From positions 62,001-126,000 of the forward strand of contig NZ_SDKM01000001.1 of NCBI RefSeq assembly GCF_004519545.1: DNA of 64,000 nt, in the 5' to 3' direction. The notes under the pieces were generated by a model. That model was not told the origin of the DNA. It saw only the letters and a list, made by a program, of their open reading frames with translations, and did not search any database. Positions within the stretch are counted from its first letter, which is position 1; each line of letters opens with the position of its first letter. Both the position numbers and the translations under genes were made by a program. Origin of the DNA: Nocardioides guangzhouensis (lineage in GTDB: Bacteria; Actinomycetota; Actinomycetes; Propionibacteriales; Nocardioidaceae). This document shows positions 21,354-25,422 of this stretch, one piece after another.

Positions 21354-21884
21354 TCAGCCGCCCCAGCCACCGCCGTCGCTCGTCCAGCCCTCGCCGGAGT
21401 GGTCACGCCACCAGTCCTTGGCGCCGCCCCAGTCGTGGTCACTTCCTCCGTCGTGGTCCCGGTGCGGGCGGCACCACCGGTCCGGCCAGCCGTCGCCGTC
21501 CCTGTCACGGCAGCGACTCCGGTCGCCGTCGTCGTCCCTCGGGGCGGGCGCCGCCGTGCGGGTCTGCGGTGGGTGCGCCTTCGGCTGCGGGGCCGCCGGC
21601 GGAGGGACCGTCGGCACCACGACCTTGCCCACGCCCTGCGCCGAGTTGTCGGGCTGCTCCCGGCTGACCGGGACCTGCCGGCCGGTGTCGGCCTTGGCCT
21701 CGGCCTCCGCGGTTGGTGACGACGACGAGGACGGGGTGGTGCTGGCCGTGGGCTGCCCGCCGGTCGGCAGGAACAGCATCACGGCCCCGGCGATCGCCGT
21801 CACCAGCATGCCGACGCCGATGCCGGCGACGATCGCCGGACCGCGCGGGGCGCGGAAGCCGGACGATTGCGGCCTTTCGGACAT
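21354..21884 (-). CDS. single-pass membrane protein with an Asp/Trp-rich exported tail
   Basis: The 176-residue product has a short cytoplasmic head (SERPQSSGFRAPRGP), one transmembrane helix (about residues 18-38, AIVAGIGVGMLVTAIAGAVML) and a long external part. That part has a Ser/Thr/Ala linker, a Pro-rich stretch, then DDDGDRSRCRDRDGDGWPDRWCRP. It ends in a Gly/Trp/Asp-rich tail (DHDWGGAKDWWRDHSGEGW). DxDGDxxxD-type segments resemble the calcium-binding loops of thrombospondin type 3 repeats or EF-hands, and two cysteines flank them. No family is recognised. The start is leaderless-like. Read-through to gatC is not expected because this gene lies downstream of gatB's operon head, on the same strand upstream of gatC. 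Confidence 0.7.
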   Translation of the reverse strand: MSERPQSSGFRAPRGPAIVAGIGVGMLVTAIAGAVMLFLPTGGQPTASTTPSSSSSPTAEAEAKADTGRQVPVSREQPDNSAQGVGKVVVPTVPPPAAPQPKAHPPQTRTAAPAPRDDDGDRSRCRDRDGDGWPDRWCRPHRDHDGGSDHDWGGAKDWWRDHSGEGWTSDGGGWGG

Positions 21885-21892
21885 GGTCCGAC

Positions 21893-21898
21893 ACCCTA
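21893..21898 (-). promoter_or_regulatory. -10 element of the Asp/Trp-rich membrane protein gene
   Basis: TAGGGT on the minus strand ends 8 bases before the ATG at 21884, and there is no Shine-Dalgarno. A leaderless start is predicted. Confidence 0.4.
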
Positions 21899-22102
21899 GG
21901 CGAGTTGCCGGTGGCGGACCACCCCCGAGGCGCCGTCGCAGGCCGTGCCGTCGGCGGTCGTCCTGATCACGTCCCGTTCCGGTCCGGGGTTCCCGCATTC
22001 CGGGCACCGCGCTCGGGGTCCGCCGCCTACACTCGCCGTACGCATCCGCTTCGCCCCGGTTCAGACCAGAGCCCGTGGCACGAATCCGAGGGGGAGGTGC
22101 CG

Positions 22103-23440
22103 ATGACGCTTCCCGTGCGGGAGCGCCAGGTCCGGCTCCTGGCCGACTCTCGGGCGTCCGAGCCACGGGCCCGGCTGGCCCAGGCGTCGAGCAGGGCCGA
22201 GTTCATGCTCCGCCTGTCGCGCACCGTCTCCGCGGTCCAGCACCCGACCCGGGCGATGGAGGCCCTGGTCACGCTGCTCGTCGAGGAGATGGTGACCTTC
22301 GCGCAGGTGACCGTGTTCTCGGGGATCCGCCAGGCCACCGTCGGAGTCGTCCACGACGGGTCGGTCCGGACCGTCGCCGGACTGGCTGTCGACGCGCCGA
22401 CCCCGCTCGTGGACGAGGTCGTGCGGCACGGCGTGGTGGAGCACCTCATGCTCGCCGCCGGAGACGAGCGCCGCGCACTCGTCGACCAGCTGGTGCCCGA
22501 CCCCGGGCTGGCCGAGGCGCTGGACGCACTGGGGCCGGAGTCGCTGGTGGTGCTGCCGCTGGCGTCGCGCGGCCGCTCGTTCGGCGCGCTCGCGCTGGCC
22601 CGGCCGCCGGGGTACGGGTTCGACGCCGGGTCGCTGGCCTTCCTCGAGGACCTGGCACAGCGGATCTCGGTCGCGCTCGACGCCAACCTGGTGGTGGCCG
22701 AGAGCCGGCACGTCGCCGCGGTGCTGCGCCGGGCGATGACCCCGGCCAGGACCCGCACCGTCCCCGACCTCGACACCGCGGCGTTCCTGCGCGTCGCTCA
22801 CGAGCACGAGGAGCTCGGCGGCGACTTCTACGACGTCCACGGTGCCGACGACGACCTGACGCTGCTGCTCGGCGACGTCGCCGGCAAGGGTGTCGAGGCG
22901 GCTGTGCACGCCAAGCGGATCCGCAACGCGGTCCGCACCGCCTCCCACGTCGACCGCGACCCGGCCTGGATCCTCGCGCTGGTCAACCGGGTGCTCTGCG
23001 ACGAGGCCGAGCCGGACTCCGAGGTCATCGCCACCGCGGTCTGCGGCCGGCTGCGCCGGGTGCCCGACGGGCTGTCGGTCGAGCTGGCCAACGCCGGCCA
23101 CCCGTCGCCGCTGGTGCTGCGGTCCGACGGCGCGGTGGAGCGGGTCGAGGCCGGCGGCGTGGCGCTCGCGCTGCTCGACGGCACGACGTACGCCGCGACG
23201 TCGGTGGTGCTGCGCCCCGACGACACCCTGCTGCTCTACACCGACGGTGTCACCGAGGCCCGCGGCCACCGCGACCTCTTCGGCGAGGAGCGCCTGGTCT
23301 CGACGCTGCGCCAGGCCGGCGGCATGAAGGCCAGCGCGGTGGTCGACCAGGTCGCGATCGCGGTGACCACCCACCTCGCCGACCGGCAGCGCGACGACAT
23401 CGCGCTGGTCGCCCTCCGCTTCCACCCCGAGCAGCCGTGA
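22103..23440 (+). CDS. GAF-domain SpoIIE/PP2C-type serine phosphatase
   Basis: The 445-residue protein has an N-terminal helical part, a GAF-like sensor (about residues 45-215; SLVVLPLASRGRSFGALALARPP) and a SpoIIE-type PP2C phosphatase domain (about 235-445). Metal-binding motifs are intact: ELGGDFYDVHG, LLGDVAGKGVEAA, ELANAGHPSPL and LLYTDGVTEARG. Phosphatases of this type, like RsbU or RsbP, usually dephosphorylate an anti-sigma-factor antagonist and so release a stress sigma factor. Neither antagonist nor sigma gene is in the window. GGGGGAGG precedes the ATG by 5 bases. The stop overlaps the next start as GTGA, so the B12-binding protein is translationally coupled and is a plausible regulator of this enzyme. 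Confidence 0.92.
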   Translation: MTLPVRERQVRLLADSRASEPRARLAQASSRAEFMLRLSRTVSAVQHPTRAMEALVTLLVEEMVTFAQVTVFSGIRQATVGVVHDGSVRTVAGLAVDAPTPLVDEVVRHGVVEHLMLAAGDERRALVDQLVPDPGLAEALDALGPESLVVLPLASRGRSFGALALARPPGYGFDAGSLAFLEDLAQRISVALDANLVVAESRHVAAVLRRAMTPARTRTVPDLDTAAFLRVAHEHEELGGDFYDVHGADDDLTLLLGDVAGKGVEAAVHAKRIRNAVRTASHVDRDPAWILALVNRVLCDEAEPDSEVIATAVCGRLRRVPDGLSVELANAGHPSPLVLRSDGAVERVEAGGVALALLDGTTYAATSVVLRPDDTLLLYTDGVTEARGHRDLFGEERLVSTLRQAGGMKASAVVDQVAIAVTTHLADRQRDDIALVALRFHPEQP

Positions 23441-24459
23441 ACGTCACGATCGACGCCATCGGCGCCGAGGACGTCGAGGCGTACTGGTCCGCGGTCGGCG
23501 CCGGCGACGAGCGGGCCGCCCGGGCGGTGGTCGCCGACGTACGCCGACGCGGGGCGAGCCCCACGGACGTCTTCGACGGCCTGGTGATCCCGGCCCAGCA
23601 GCGGGTCGGCCAGCGGTGGGCGGCCAACGACTGGACGGTGGCGCACGAGCACGCCGCGACCGCGATCAGCGAGGCGGTCGTGCTCCGCCTGGCGGCCGAC
23701 ATCCCCGACCCGGACCGCGCCGGGCGCCCGCTGCTGGTGGCCTGCGTCGAACGCGAGTGGCACGCCCTGCCCGCACTGGTCGTGGCGCACACGCTCCGGG
23801 CCGGCGGGCACGCCGTCGACTACCTGGGCGCGAACGTGTCGCCGGAGACCGTGGTCGGCCGGATCATCGACGCCGGGCCGCGGGCGGTGCTGGTCAGCGC
23901 CTCGCTGTCGTCGTCGCTCCCCCGGGTCCGGCGGCTGGTCGAGGCGGTCACCGGCACCGGTACGCCGGTGGTGGTCGGGGGCCACGCGTTCGACGCCGCG
24001 GGCGTCCGGGCCGCGCGGCTCGGCGCGACGGCCTACGCCGGCGACGTGGCGACCCTCGACAGCCTCCTGCTCGACCTCCCCGGCCACGTCGCACCGGCCG
24101 CGCCACTGCGGCACCCGGGTGCGGTCGAGGCGCTGGAGATCCTGGCCGAGGTCGACGAGATCGGACGGGACGTGATCCGCGGCTCGGAGGTGGACCTCGG
24201 CGAGGCCGGGGTCCCCGACGCCATGGCCCCGGACGACTGGCGGGTGGTGCTGAGCACCTACGTCCCGCACGTGATCGGCTGCGTCGCGGGCGGGCTGCTG
24301 ACCGAGGACCCGTCGGTGCCCGGCCAGGCCCGCACCTGGCTCACCGACGTGCTGGCGCTGCGCGGCGGCGACCCCCGCGCCGTGGACGCGCTCTGGCAGG
24401 CGCTCGCCACGCGACTGCGGGAGTACCCCGAGGCGGTCCGGCTGATCGACCTCGCCTGA
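23437..24459 (+). CDS. cobalamin-binding (CarH-like) sensor protein coupled to the SpoIIE phosphatase
   Basis: The 340-residue protein has no HTH. Its N-terminal helical bundle contains Trp61 followed by nine residues and Glu71-His72. This W-x9-EH spacing is the AdoCbl-capping motif of CarH/LitR photoreceptors. A Rossmann-type B12 domain follows: Glu107-Trp-His109 replaces the usual DxHxxG base-off ligand motif, SASLSS (144-149) fits SxL, and Gly171-Gly172 is the GG motif. The residue after Trp61 is Ala, whereas Thermus CarH has the His that forms the second cobalt ligand after light exposure, so the photochemical end state would differ. About 130 C-terminal residues have no recognised domain. 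The GTG start overlaps the phosphatase stop. A light- or cobalamin-responsive input to the phosphatase is my inference. Confidence 0.85.
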   Translation: MNVTIDAIGAEDVEAYWSAVGAGDERAARAVVADVRRRGASPTDVFDGLVIPAQQRVGQRWAANDWTVAHEHAATAISEAVVLRLAADIPDPDRAGRPLLVACVEREWHALPALVVAHTLRAGGHAVDYLGANVSPETVVGRIIDAGPRAVLVSASLSSSLPRVRRLVEAVTGTGTPVVVGGHAFDAAGVRAARLGATAYAGDVATLDSLLLDLPGHVAPAAPLRHPGAVEALEILAEVDEIGRDVIRGSEVDLGEAGVPDAMAPDDWRVVLSTYVPHVIGCVAGGLLTEDPSVPGQARTWLTDVLALRGGDPRAVDALWQALATRLREYPEAVRLIDLA

Positions 24460-24485
24460 TCCCTCCTCCGCTGGGGCTCCCGACG

Positions 24486-24491
24486 TACCGT
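24486..24491 (+). promoter_or_regulatory. -10 element of the SGNH lipoprotein gene
   Basis: TACCGT ends 7 bases before the GTG at 24499. No Shine-Dalgarno is present, which fits a leaderless mRNA. Confidence 0.45.
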
Positions 24492-24498
24492 TCTCCGC

Positions 24499-25422
24499 GT
24501 GAGGAACCTGCCGGTCCGCGCCGCCCTCGGGCTCGCCGCCGCCTGCCTGCTCGCCGCGTGCACGTCGGCCGCCGAGCAGGCCGGGTCACCGGACCCCGAG
24601 GAGCCGACCGCGGCGCCGTGGTCGGCGTCGGTCCAGCGGTACGTCGCGCTCGGCGACTCCTACACCGCGGCGCCGATGATCGCCGGCAAGATGTCGGACG
24701 ACGGGTGCTTCCGCTCCAGCAACAACTACCCGGCGCTGCTCGCCCGCGACCTCCCCGGCGCGACGGTCGTCGACCGCAGCTGCTCGGCGGCGACCACCCG
24801 CGACCTCACCCACCGCCAGCGCACCGTCTTCGGCGCCGCGCGACCGCCCCAGCTCGCGGCCCTGACCCGCGACACCGACCTGGTCACGGTCGGCATCGGC
24901 GGCAACGACCTCGACGTGTTCCAGCGGCTGGTCGGCACCTGCACGGCGCTCCGGCGCTCGGACCCGACCGGAGACCCGTGCCACCGGTCCTTCACGCGCG
25001 GCGGCACCGACACGATGCTCCGCGACGCCGCCCGCGTCGAGGGGCGCGTGACCGCCGTCCTGGACGCCGTCCAGCGCAGGGCTCCCGACGCACGGATCGT
25101 GGTGGTCGACTACCCCGTGATCGTTCCCGAGGCCGGCACCTGCCCGCGCCGGCTCCCGATGGCCACCGGCGACTACCCCTGGGCGCACCGGGTCAACGAG
25201 CGCCTCAGCCGCTCGCTGCGCGACGCGGCCGGGCGGGCCGGCGTCGAGCACCTCGACGTCGCCGCGGCCAGCACCGGCCACGACGTGTGCGCCGGCGCGG
25301 ACGCCTGGGTCAACGGGCAGCGGACCGAGCCGGGCACAGCGCTCGCCTACCACCCGCTCGCGGCCGGCCAGCAGGCCGTCGCCGGGCTTCTCCGGGACCT
25401 GCTCGCCGCGCCGCCGGCCTAG
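24499..25422 (+). CDS. SGNH/GDSL-family esterase lipoprotein
   Basis: The 307-residue protein has a lipoprotein signal (MRNLPVRAALGLAAACLLAAC, Cys21) and an SGNH hydrolase domain. Block I is YVALGDSYTAAP with the nucleophile serine, block III is VGIGGNDLDVF with the GGND Asn, and block V is AYHPLAAGQQAVA with the Asp/His region (D/H in YHP). Cysteines at CFRSS, RSCSAAT, GTCTAL, DPCHRS, GTCPRR and HDVCAG could form the three disulfides known in Streptomyces-type secreted esterases/lipases of this family. It probably hydrolyses lipid or carbohydrate esters at the cell surface. Confidence 0.92.
   Translation: MRNLPVRAALGLAAACLLAACTSAAEQAGSPDPEEPTAAPWSASVQRYVALGDSYTAAPMIAGKMSDDGCFRSSNNYPALLARDLPGATVVDRSCSAATTRDLTHRQRTVFGAARPPQLAALTRDTDLVTVGIGGNDLDVFQRLVGTCTALRRSDPTGDPCHRSFTRGGTDTMLRDAARVEGRVTAVLDAVQRRAPDARIVVVDYPVIVPEAGTCPRRLPMATGDYPWAHRVNERLSRSLRDAAGRAGVEHLDVAAASTGHDVCAGADAWVNGQRTEPGTALAYHPLAAGQQAVAGLLRDLLAAPPA

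Follow-up and report, generated by a model that had tools for sequence, protein, structure and literature searches.

A photocobilin gene conserved beside a SpoIIE-type phosphatase gene in actinobacteria: a probable two-protein light switch

A stretch of 64,000 nucleotides from Nocardioides guangzhouensis (contig NZ_SDKM01000001.1 of assembly GCF_004519545.1, positions 62,001 to 126,000; hereafter the window) carries two overlapping genes on the forward strand. The upstream gene encodes a GAF-SpoIIE (PPM-type) serine/threonine phosphatase of 445 residues (22103..23440, ATG start, TGA stop), and the downstream gene a B12 protein of 340 residues (23437..24459, GTG start, TGA stop) that is, as judged from sequence and a structural model, a photocobilin with a C-terminal globin domain. 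The photocobilin gene starts, and the phosphatase gene stops, within a shared GTGA (23437..23440), as read correctly in a first-pass annotation made from the sequence alone. The two genes recur as an ordered, usually tight pair across many actinobacterial genera, and we consider it probable that their products form a two-protein light switch acting through partner switching among STAS, HATPase and sigma proteins.

A sequence search of the PDB matched the B12 protein to the photocobilins SasPcob (8J2W, residues 14-333, E 9.3e-35) and AbPcob (8J2Y, residues 11-339, E 1.6e-28), while CarH (5C8A) matched at residues 38-207 only (E 4.5e-8). An AlphaFold2 model of the protein (15 sequences) had a mean pLDDT (predicted local distance difference test) of 91.6, and photocobilins occupied the first five Foldseek rows. 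The model aligned over residues 6-340 with 8J2Y and 8J2W, with the globin packed on the B12 domains, and its VIA-align Z was 34.5 (321 residues) and 33.4 (318) for the photocobilins and 18.5 (195) for CarH. The four-helix cap domain (23476..23682; Pfam B12-binding_2, residues 14-82) contains Trp61 (23617..23619) and Glu71-His72 (23647..23652), and the B12-binding Rossmann domain (23731..24030; Pfam B12-binding, residues 99-198) contains Glu107-Trp108-His109 (23755..23763), of which His109 aligns with SasPcob His108, the lower cobalt ligand. No Pfam match was found from residue ~210 onward; the globin (photoglobin) domain (24115..24453), missed in the first-pass annotation, is placed by the model helices, residues ~227-339, and by the full-length alignment to 8J2W and 8J2Y. 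Within it, Tyr275 (24259..24261) and Trp301 (24337..24339) align with SasPcob Asp270 and Trp296, respectively. The protein thus combines a B12-binding cap and Rossmann domain bearing the Trp-x9-Glu-His and Glu/Asp-x-His motifs with a globin and similarity to photocobilins over its full length. Conservation was counted in an alignment of 106 sequences that includes the window protein, the solved proteins and some duplicates (one species via two tools), and leaves out extra window copies and rows matching fewer than 250 profile positions (L056, L060, L088 and L061; broken or short frames). Trp occurs at positions 61 and 296 in all 106 (SasPcob numbering), Glu71 in 104, His72 in 102, the Glu aligned with Glu107 in all 106, and the lower-ligand His in 105.

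Roles for these residues come from work on SasPcob (PMC10979010). That protein has Trp61, which stacks on the adenosyl group, Glu71-His72, which form the dimer-interface motif, and the lower ligand His108; its C-terminal five-helix globin binds biliverdin via Asp270, the main contact, and Trp296. The residues on which the first-pass annotation relied (Trp61, Ala62, Glu71, His72, Glu107 and His109) are all present. It had remarked on Ala62 as replacing the His that follows Trp in CarH; the residue is as described but is normal in photocobilins, because SasPcob has Gln62 and its light state carries water or hydroxide on cobalt, not a bis-His arrangement (PMC10979010). By analogy with the solved photocobilins, the B12 protein would bind adenosylcobalamin (AdoCbl) and respond to light. 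AdoCbl can probably be made by the organism itself, since the adenosyltransferase PF01923 is present in its genome; PF02572 is absent by Pfam profile search.

The phosphatase consists of a GAF domain (22262..22681, residues ~54-193; Pfam GAF_2 54-193 and GAF_3 78-193) and a SpoIIE catalytic domain (22847..23422, residues 249-440; Pfam E 7.9e-43). Gly239-Gly240-Asp241, Asp244, Asp258, Thr380-Asp381-Gly382 and Asp431-Asp432 are invariant across 15 paired phosphatases, and we take these residues to form the metal site. With its SpoIIE (PPM) domain, metal-site residues and N-terminal sensor domain, the protein is of the RsbU/RsbP type. A scan for promoters and terminators across 21800-24600 returned nothing, matching the expectation from shuffles.

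Conservation of the pair was estimated most fairly from 296 genomes drawn evenly from the class, with a match cut-off of E <= 1e-30. Photocobilin matches were found in 47 of these genomes (54 matches, 20 of 114 genera), and for 41 of the 54 matches, corresponding to 37 of the 47 genomes, a co-directional SpoIIE domain lay upstream at a domain-to-domain distance of at most 400 bp. Since SpoIIE domains number 8 in the 5.27-Mb genome of N. guangzhouensis, pairing at this frequency is beyond chance. The remaining matches include two second copies in tandem runs and one at a contig end. A one-genome-per-species collection contains at least 567 relatives; of the best 80 of these, 77 have a co-directional SpoIIE gene immediately before the photocobilin, a figure biased upward because relatives were ranked against an alignment with 14 of 15 rows paired; two of the three exceptions stand at contig ends (L069, L077), and one is a true miss (L074). 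Among 147 Nocardioides genomes, 25 have a relative at E < 1e-20, and SpoIIE lies just upstream of a photocobilin copy in 16 of these, two with a broken photocobilin frame. The commonest spacing is the 4-bp overlap seen in the window, in 48 of 93 pairs, a count that includes a few duplicates and assumes the start codon closest to the end of the preceding gene, which favours short overlaps. In a tree of SpoIIE domains, a single change with support of 83 set 87 paired domains apart from 15 unpaired ones; the tree was a quick one, midpoint-rooted and without a mixture model, and has long branches among the unpaired domains. No photocobilin-SpoIIE fusion was seen in the best-80 and class-sample loci. 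The genetic coupling of a B12 sensor to an RsbU/RsbP-like phosphatase, which the first-pass annotation had proposed from this one locus, is conserved in relatives.

Several variants of the arrangement were seen. Two genomes carry two tandem photocobilin genes between SpoIIE and STAS (L204/L212 and L205/L213). A broken photocobilin frame stands beside an open phosphatase frame in L056 (5443-6433) and in L060 (= L088, Nocardioides ungokensis), reflecting either decay or sequencing error. Elsewhere the photocobilin gene lies immediately downstream of, and touches, a GGDEF diguanylate cyclase gene (L026:422-2538 and L027:1147-3077), which amounts to the AbDPcob fusion split into two genes; Pfam identifies the GGDEF gene in these two loci, and L025 appears similar. 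A photocobilin subclade (L015-L020, L062 and L074) lacks an adjoining SpoIIE gene, and a few of its members have lost Glu71, His72 or His108; in L016 the neighbouring genes encode a metallo-beta-lactamase-fold protein and a THUMP-like methyltransferase. The N. guangzhouensis genome also encodes a protein with a MerR helix-turn-helix (HTH) and a B12-binding domain, of the CarH/LitR type (L036:967-2106), and some congeners appear, by eye, to carry two such genes close together.

Neighbouring genes point to partner switching as the output of the family. Profiles for STAS, HATPase and sigma proteins were derived from the clustered neighbours of these same loci, with examples checked by Pfam and NCBIfam; the sigma profile is based on only six sequences. 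Of the best 80 relatives, 25 have a co-directional STAS domain no more than 150 bp downstream, and 21 of the 54 class-sample matches, the two tandem copies included, have one within 150 bp 3' of the photocobilin. Four Nocardioides loci (L051, L052, L053 and L056) have STAS, HATPase, SpoIIE and photocobilin genes in this order on one strand. Amycolatopsis antarctica (L114) and three Actinokineospora loci (L086, L096 and L105) have the order sigma, STAS, HATPase, SpoIIE, photocobilin, STAS, again on one strand; the genes of L114 are closely spaced, and the Actinokineospora loci have ~550-700 bp of unannotated sequence between sigma and the first STAS. The sigma proteins score above the cut-off of 234 bits for the SigB/SigF/SigG family TIGR02980 in L114 (248), L086 (252), L105 (255) and L139 (297). 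The pair stands near STAS and HATPase genes, and rarely a sigma gene, in part of its relatives, a point that the first-pass annotation had raised as a question, and because some relatives add these genes, the sigma being of SigB/F/G type, partner switching is supported for the family. In five loci of Mycobacterium type (L072, L076, L078, L079 and L080), the pair is followed by a large gene and then by STAS; the large gene of L080 encodes a 1379-residue histidine kinase-receiver-PAS-SpoIIE-HATPase protein.

The N. guangzhouensis genome as a whole has 7 matches to STAS and 42 to HATPase_c_2, the latter of uneven strength and presumably counting ordinary histidine kinases among them. Identities to the operon proteins of relatives are 27-35% for STAS and 28-47% for HATPase, the highest over short stretches. 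One STAS protein (L180; G000:C13:45034-46058) was the best match (33%, 81 residues) to the operon STAS of three of the five relatives tried. Its gene lies ~230 bp from the only match to a PduO-type cobalamin adenosyltransferase in the genome.

The globin of the window protein differs from that of SasPcob at the biliverdin site. The position of Asp270 is Asp in only 38 of the 106 aligned sequences; it is Tyr in the window protein (Tyr275), which thus lacks the Asp of the SasPcob-like high-affinity bilin site, and His in AbPcob. A photocobilin tree of 101 distinct rows, two of them solved proteins, was computed quickly without a mixture model and midpoint-rooted, with pairing labels assigned by hand. 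The Asp label changes four times on this tree, against a mean of 30 for shuffled labels. A branch with support of 97 has on one side 61 rows, all without the Asp, including the window protein and largely keeping the B12 residues, and on the other side 40 rows, of which 37 have the Asp, SasPcob among them; the three lacking it include AbPcob. SpoIIE pairing occurs on both sides, in 50 of 59 testable rows of the Asp-less group and 35 of 38 of the other. The Asp may have been lost in this group or never been present, both being possible because the root of the tree is not known. Its absence is no bar to family membership, since AbPcob, still a photocobilin, has His there. The weak biliverdin binding of AbPcob was ascribed to this Asp-to-His change (PMC10979010), so the window protein and its group are expected, from sequence, to bind biliverdin weakly or not at all and to sense mainly green light.

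Haem oxygenase (PF01126) was examined as a proxy for biliverdin supply. It had no match in the N. guangzhouensis genome, in a search confined to this one bilin-forming enzyme. The family is present in 13 of the 24 congeners that hold a photocobilin, and there is no clean link to the Asp in the genus, because of the three Nocardioides whose SpoIIE-paired photocobilin carries the Asp, two (G067 and G106) lack this family. Among 50 further genomes it was found in 19 of 25 with Asp270 and in 9 of 25 without, with one weak match in each group, and among 13 genomes of Mycobacterium type only in L092 (no Asp) and L126 (Asp). The distribution fits a lost bilin site but tracks taxonomy, and was not used as support.

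In the proposed mechanism, the stand-alone photocobilin would bind AdoCbl between the four-helix cap and the Rossmann domain, with the globin packed against both, and in the dark the AdoCbl-loaded protein would form a head-to-tail dimer. Green light would break the Co-C bond and release adenosine, upon which the Glu71-His72 helix would shift and the dimer would be disrupted. Loss of the dimer would alter the contact of the photocobilin with the phosphatase, changing how the phosphatase acts on a STAS anti-sigma antagonist; as a result, a SigB/F/G-type sigma factor held by a HATPase anti-sigma factor would be freed or captured. Within this scheme we infer AdoCbl binding, the light response, the contact with the phosphatase, the direction of control and the STAS target in the N. 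guangzhouensis genome. Action in trans has precedent, because SasPcob, itself a stand-alone protein, switched on a separate cyclase domain when illuminated in vitro (PMC10979010). The helical linker is a plausible point of contact, because RsbU and similar stress-response phosphatases are switched by dimerisation through such a linker (PMC12143880). In its widest form, namely that a widespread actinobacterial photocobilin gates SpoIIE in trans and thereby a SigB/F/G-type sigma factor, and that the clade of the window protein is bilin-free with a globin that is structural or binds another ligand, the proposal is tentative, and we lean slightly against all of its parts holding together.

A number of observations weigh against a light switch that acts through partner switching. 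The literature searched yielded no experiment on this protein or on any photocobilin-SpoIIE pair, and the conserved B12 residues fit sensing of the AdoCbl level as well as of light. Profile search found no STAS, HATPase or sigma gene within the 64-kb window, and comparison of 7 STAS and 30 of the 42 HATPase loci of the genome revealed no clear orthologue of the relatives' STAS and HATPase. Nine of the 25 Nocardioides genomes with a photocobilin have no SpoIIE-paired copy, and in two of these nine a GGDEF gene, verified by Pfam, stands next to the photocobilin; SpoIIE is missing from 10 of the 54 class-sample matches. Distances among photocobilins and among their phosphatases correlate at r 0.95 over 85 pairs, which is not proof of contact because linked genes share their history anyway.

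The failure of the profile search to find STAS, HATPase or sigma genes in the window would fit a light-gated module whose output is not a sigma factor, with the STAS partner in this genome feeding some other process, as would the finding that most STAS-bearing loci show no sigma gene nearby by the six-sequence profile. Four relatives, however, have a SigB/F/G-type sigma gene upstream in the same orientation, separated from the pair by STAS and HATPase genes; three of the four sigma proteins were confirmed by family, and we regard an output other than sigma as rather unlikely. The input could likewise be other than light: the B12 protein might sense the level or form of cobalamin (AdoCbl versus other cobalamins) and report B12 status to the phosphatase. 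AdoCbl-binding residues would be identical in both cases, and the enzyme activity of AbDPcob already differs in the dark between the apo and AdoCbl-bound forms (PMC10979010). Against this, the cap Trp, the Glu-His and the lower-ligand His constitute the light-response signature of CarH and photocobilins (PMC10979010, PMC11796333), and both SasPcob and AbDPcob respond to green light (PMC10979010), so that a cobalamin sensor is the less expected function, with about one chance in a handful. It is more doubtful still that the genes are merely co-transcribed, the phosphatase answering a ligand of its own GAF domain and the photocobilin acting elsewhere. That GAF domain could indeed sense another signal, and some photocobilins have no SpoIIE neighbour or stand beside GGDEF genes, but the order is constant and the spacing tight over many genera, paired phosphatases fall on one side of their tree, and SpoIIE-photocobilin-photocobilin-STAS runs occur in two genomes.

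Two further alternatives concern the identity of the B12 protein, and both were rejected. The first-pass annotation had described a CarH-like sensor without a DNA-binding domain. The lack of an HTH is borne out, with no HTH family at E <= 0.1 in Pfam, and the B12 half does resemble CarH (Z 18.5 over 195 residues). The description itself does not stand: the final ~120 residues model as a globin domain and align with the photocobilin globin in sequence as well as in the model, the full-length scores of photocobilins are far above those of CarH, and the NCBIfam CarH score is 53.3 bits against a cut-off of 400, which makes a CarH stripped of its HTH and lacking a second sensory domain highly improbable. 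Weak NCBIfam matches to MtbC and related families suggested a methyltransferase corrinoid protein (MttC/MtaC type); all of these matches are far below their cut-offs, the photocobilin match is much better, and we give this identity practically no weight.

A light switch acting through partner switching would not be an entirely new route. Photocobilins are known, and STAS, SpoIIE and PP2C proteins were named in 2024 as potential SasPcob partners from interaction networks; the same study says that what stand-alone photocobilins do is 'less clear' than for the fusions (PMC10979010). The distinct signalling route claimed in the first-pass annotation is therefore not wholly novel, while the coupling on which it was based is conserved. 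A search for literature linking B12 or cobalamin with SpoIIE or anti-sigma factors returned only PMC10979010 on point; a photoglobin survey (PMC8717448) fell outside that search and may already hold a SpoIIE link. The SignatureFinder study treats domain fusions of light-responsive B12 domains, and its main text does not contain the words 'SpoIIE' or 'phosphatase' (PMC11796333). As far as these searches go, three things are new: the conserved pair and the counts for it, the loci that include a sigma gene, and the group lacking the Asp that contacts bilin. The pair names a testable partner for stand-alone photocobilins. If the proposal is true, green light, and perhaps B12 status, would be tied to general stress responses in actinobacteria, and B12-based optogenetics would gain a phosphatase output. 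The Asp-less group raises the question of whether the second chromophore is optional in the photocobilin family.

Among known systems, SasPcob from Saccharothrix syringae (PDB 8J2W, 8J2X) is similar to the window protein in length and three-part fold, with Trp61, Glu71 and His72 at the same numbers and equivalents of the lower-ligand His and Trp296. The two are 32% identical over aligned positions, and differ in that SasPcob binds biliverdin with Asp270 whereas the window protein has Tyr275 and lies across a supported tree branch. AbDPcob (PDB 8J2Y) shares the sensor fold and also lacks the Asp, having His instead, and light controls its enzyme output; it is fused to a GGDEF diguanylate cyclase, whereas the presumed output in the window is a separate SpoIIE phosphatase. 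CarH and LitR (PDB 5C8A, 5C8D, 3WHP) share with the window protein the AdoCbl-binding type of cap and Rossmann domain, including the light-response motif, but CarH has a MerR HTH, no globin and His132 in the light state, where the window protein has Ala62. On the phosphatase side, RsbU, RsbP and RsbZ similarly join a SpoIIE/PPM domain to an N-terminal sensor, with control by a partner protein described for RsbU-RsbT and RsbP-RsbQ (PMC12143880); in the window, the presumed partner is a photocobilin rather than RsbT or RsbQ.

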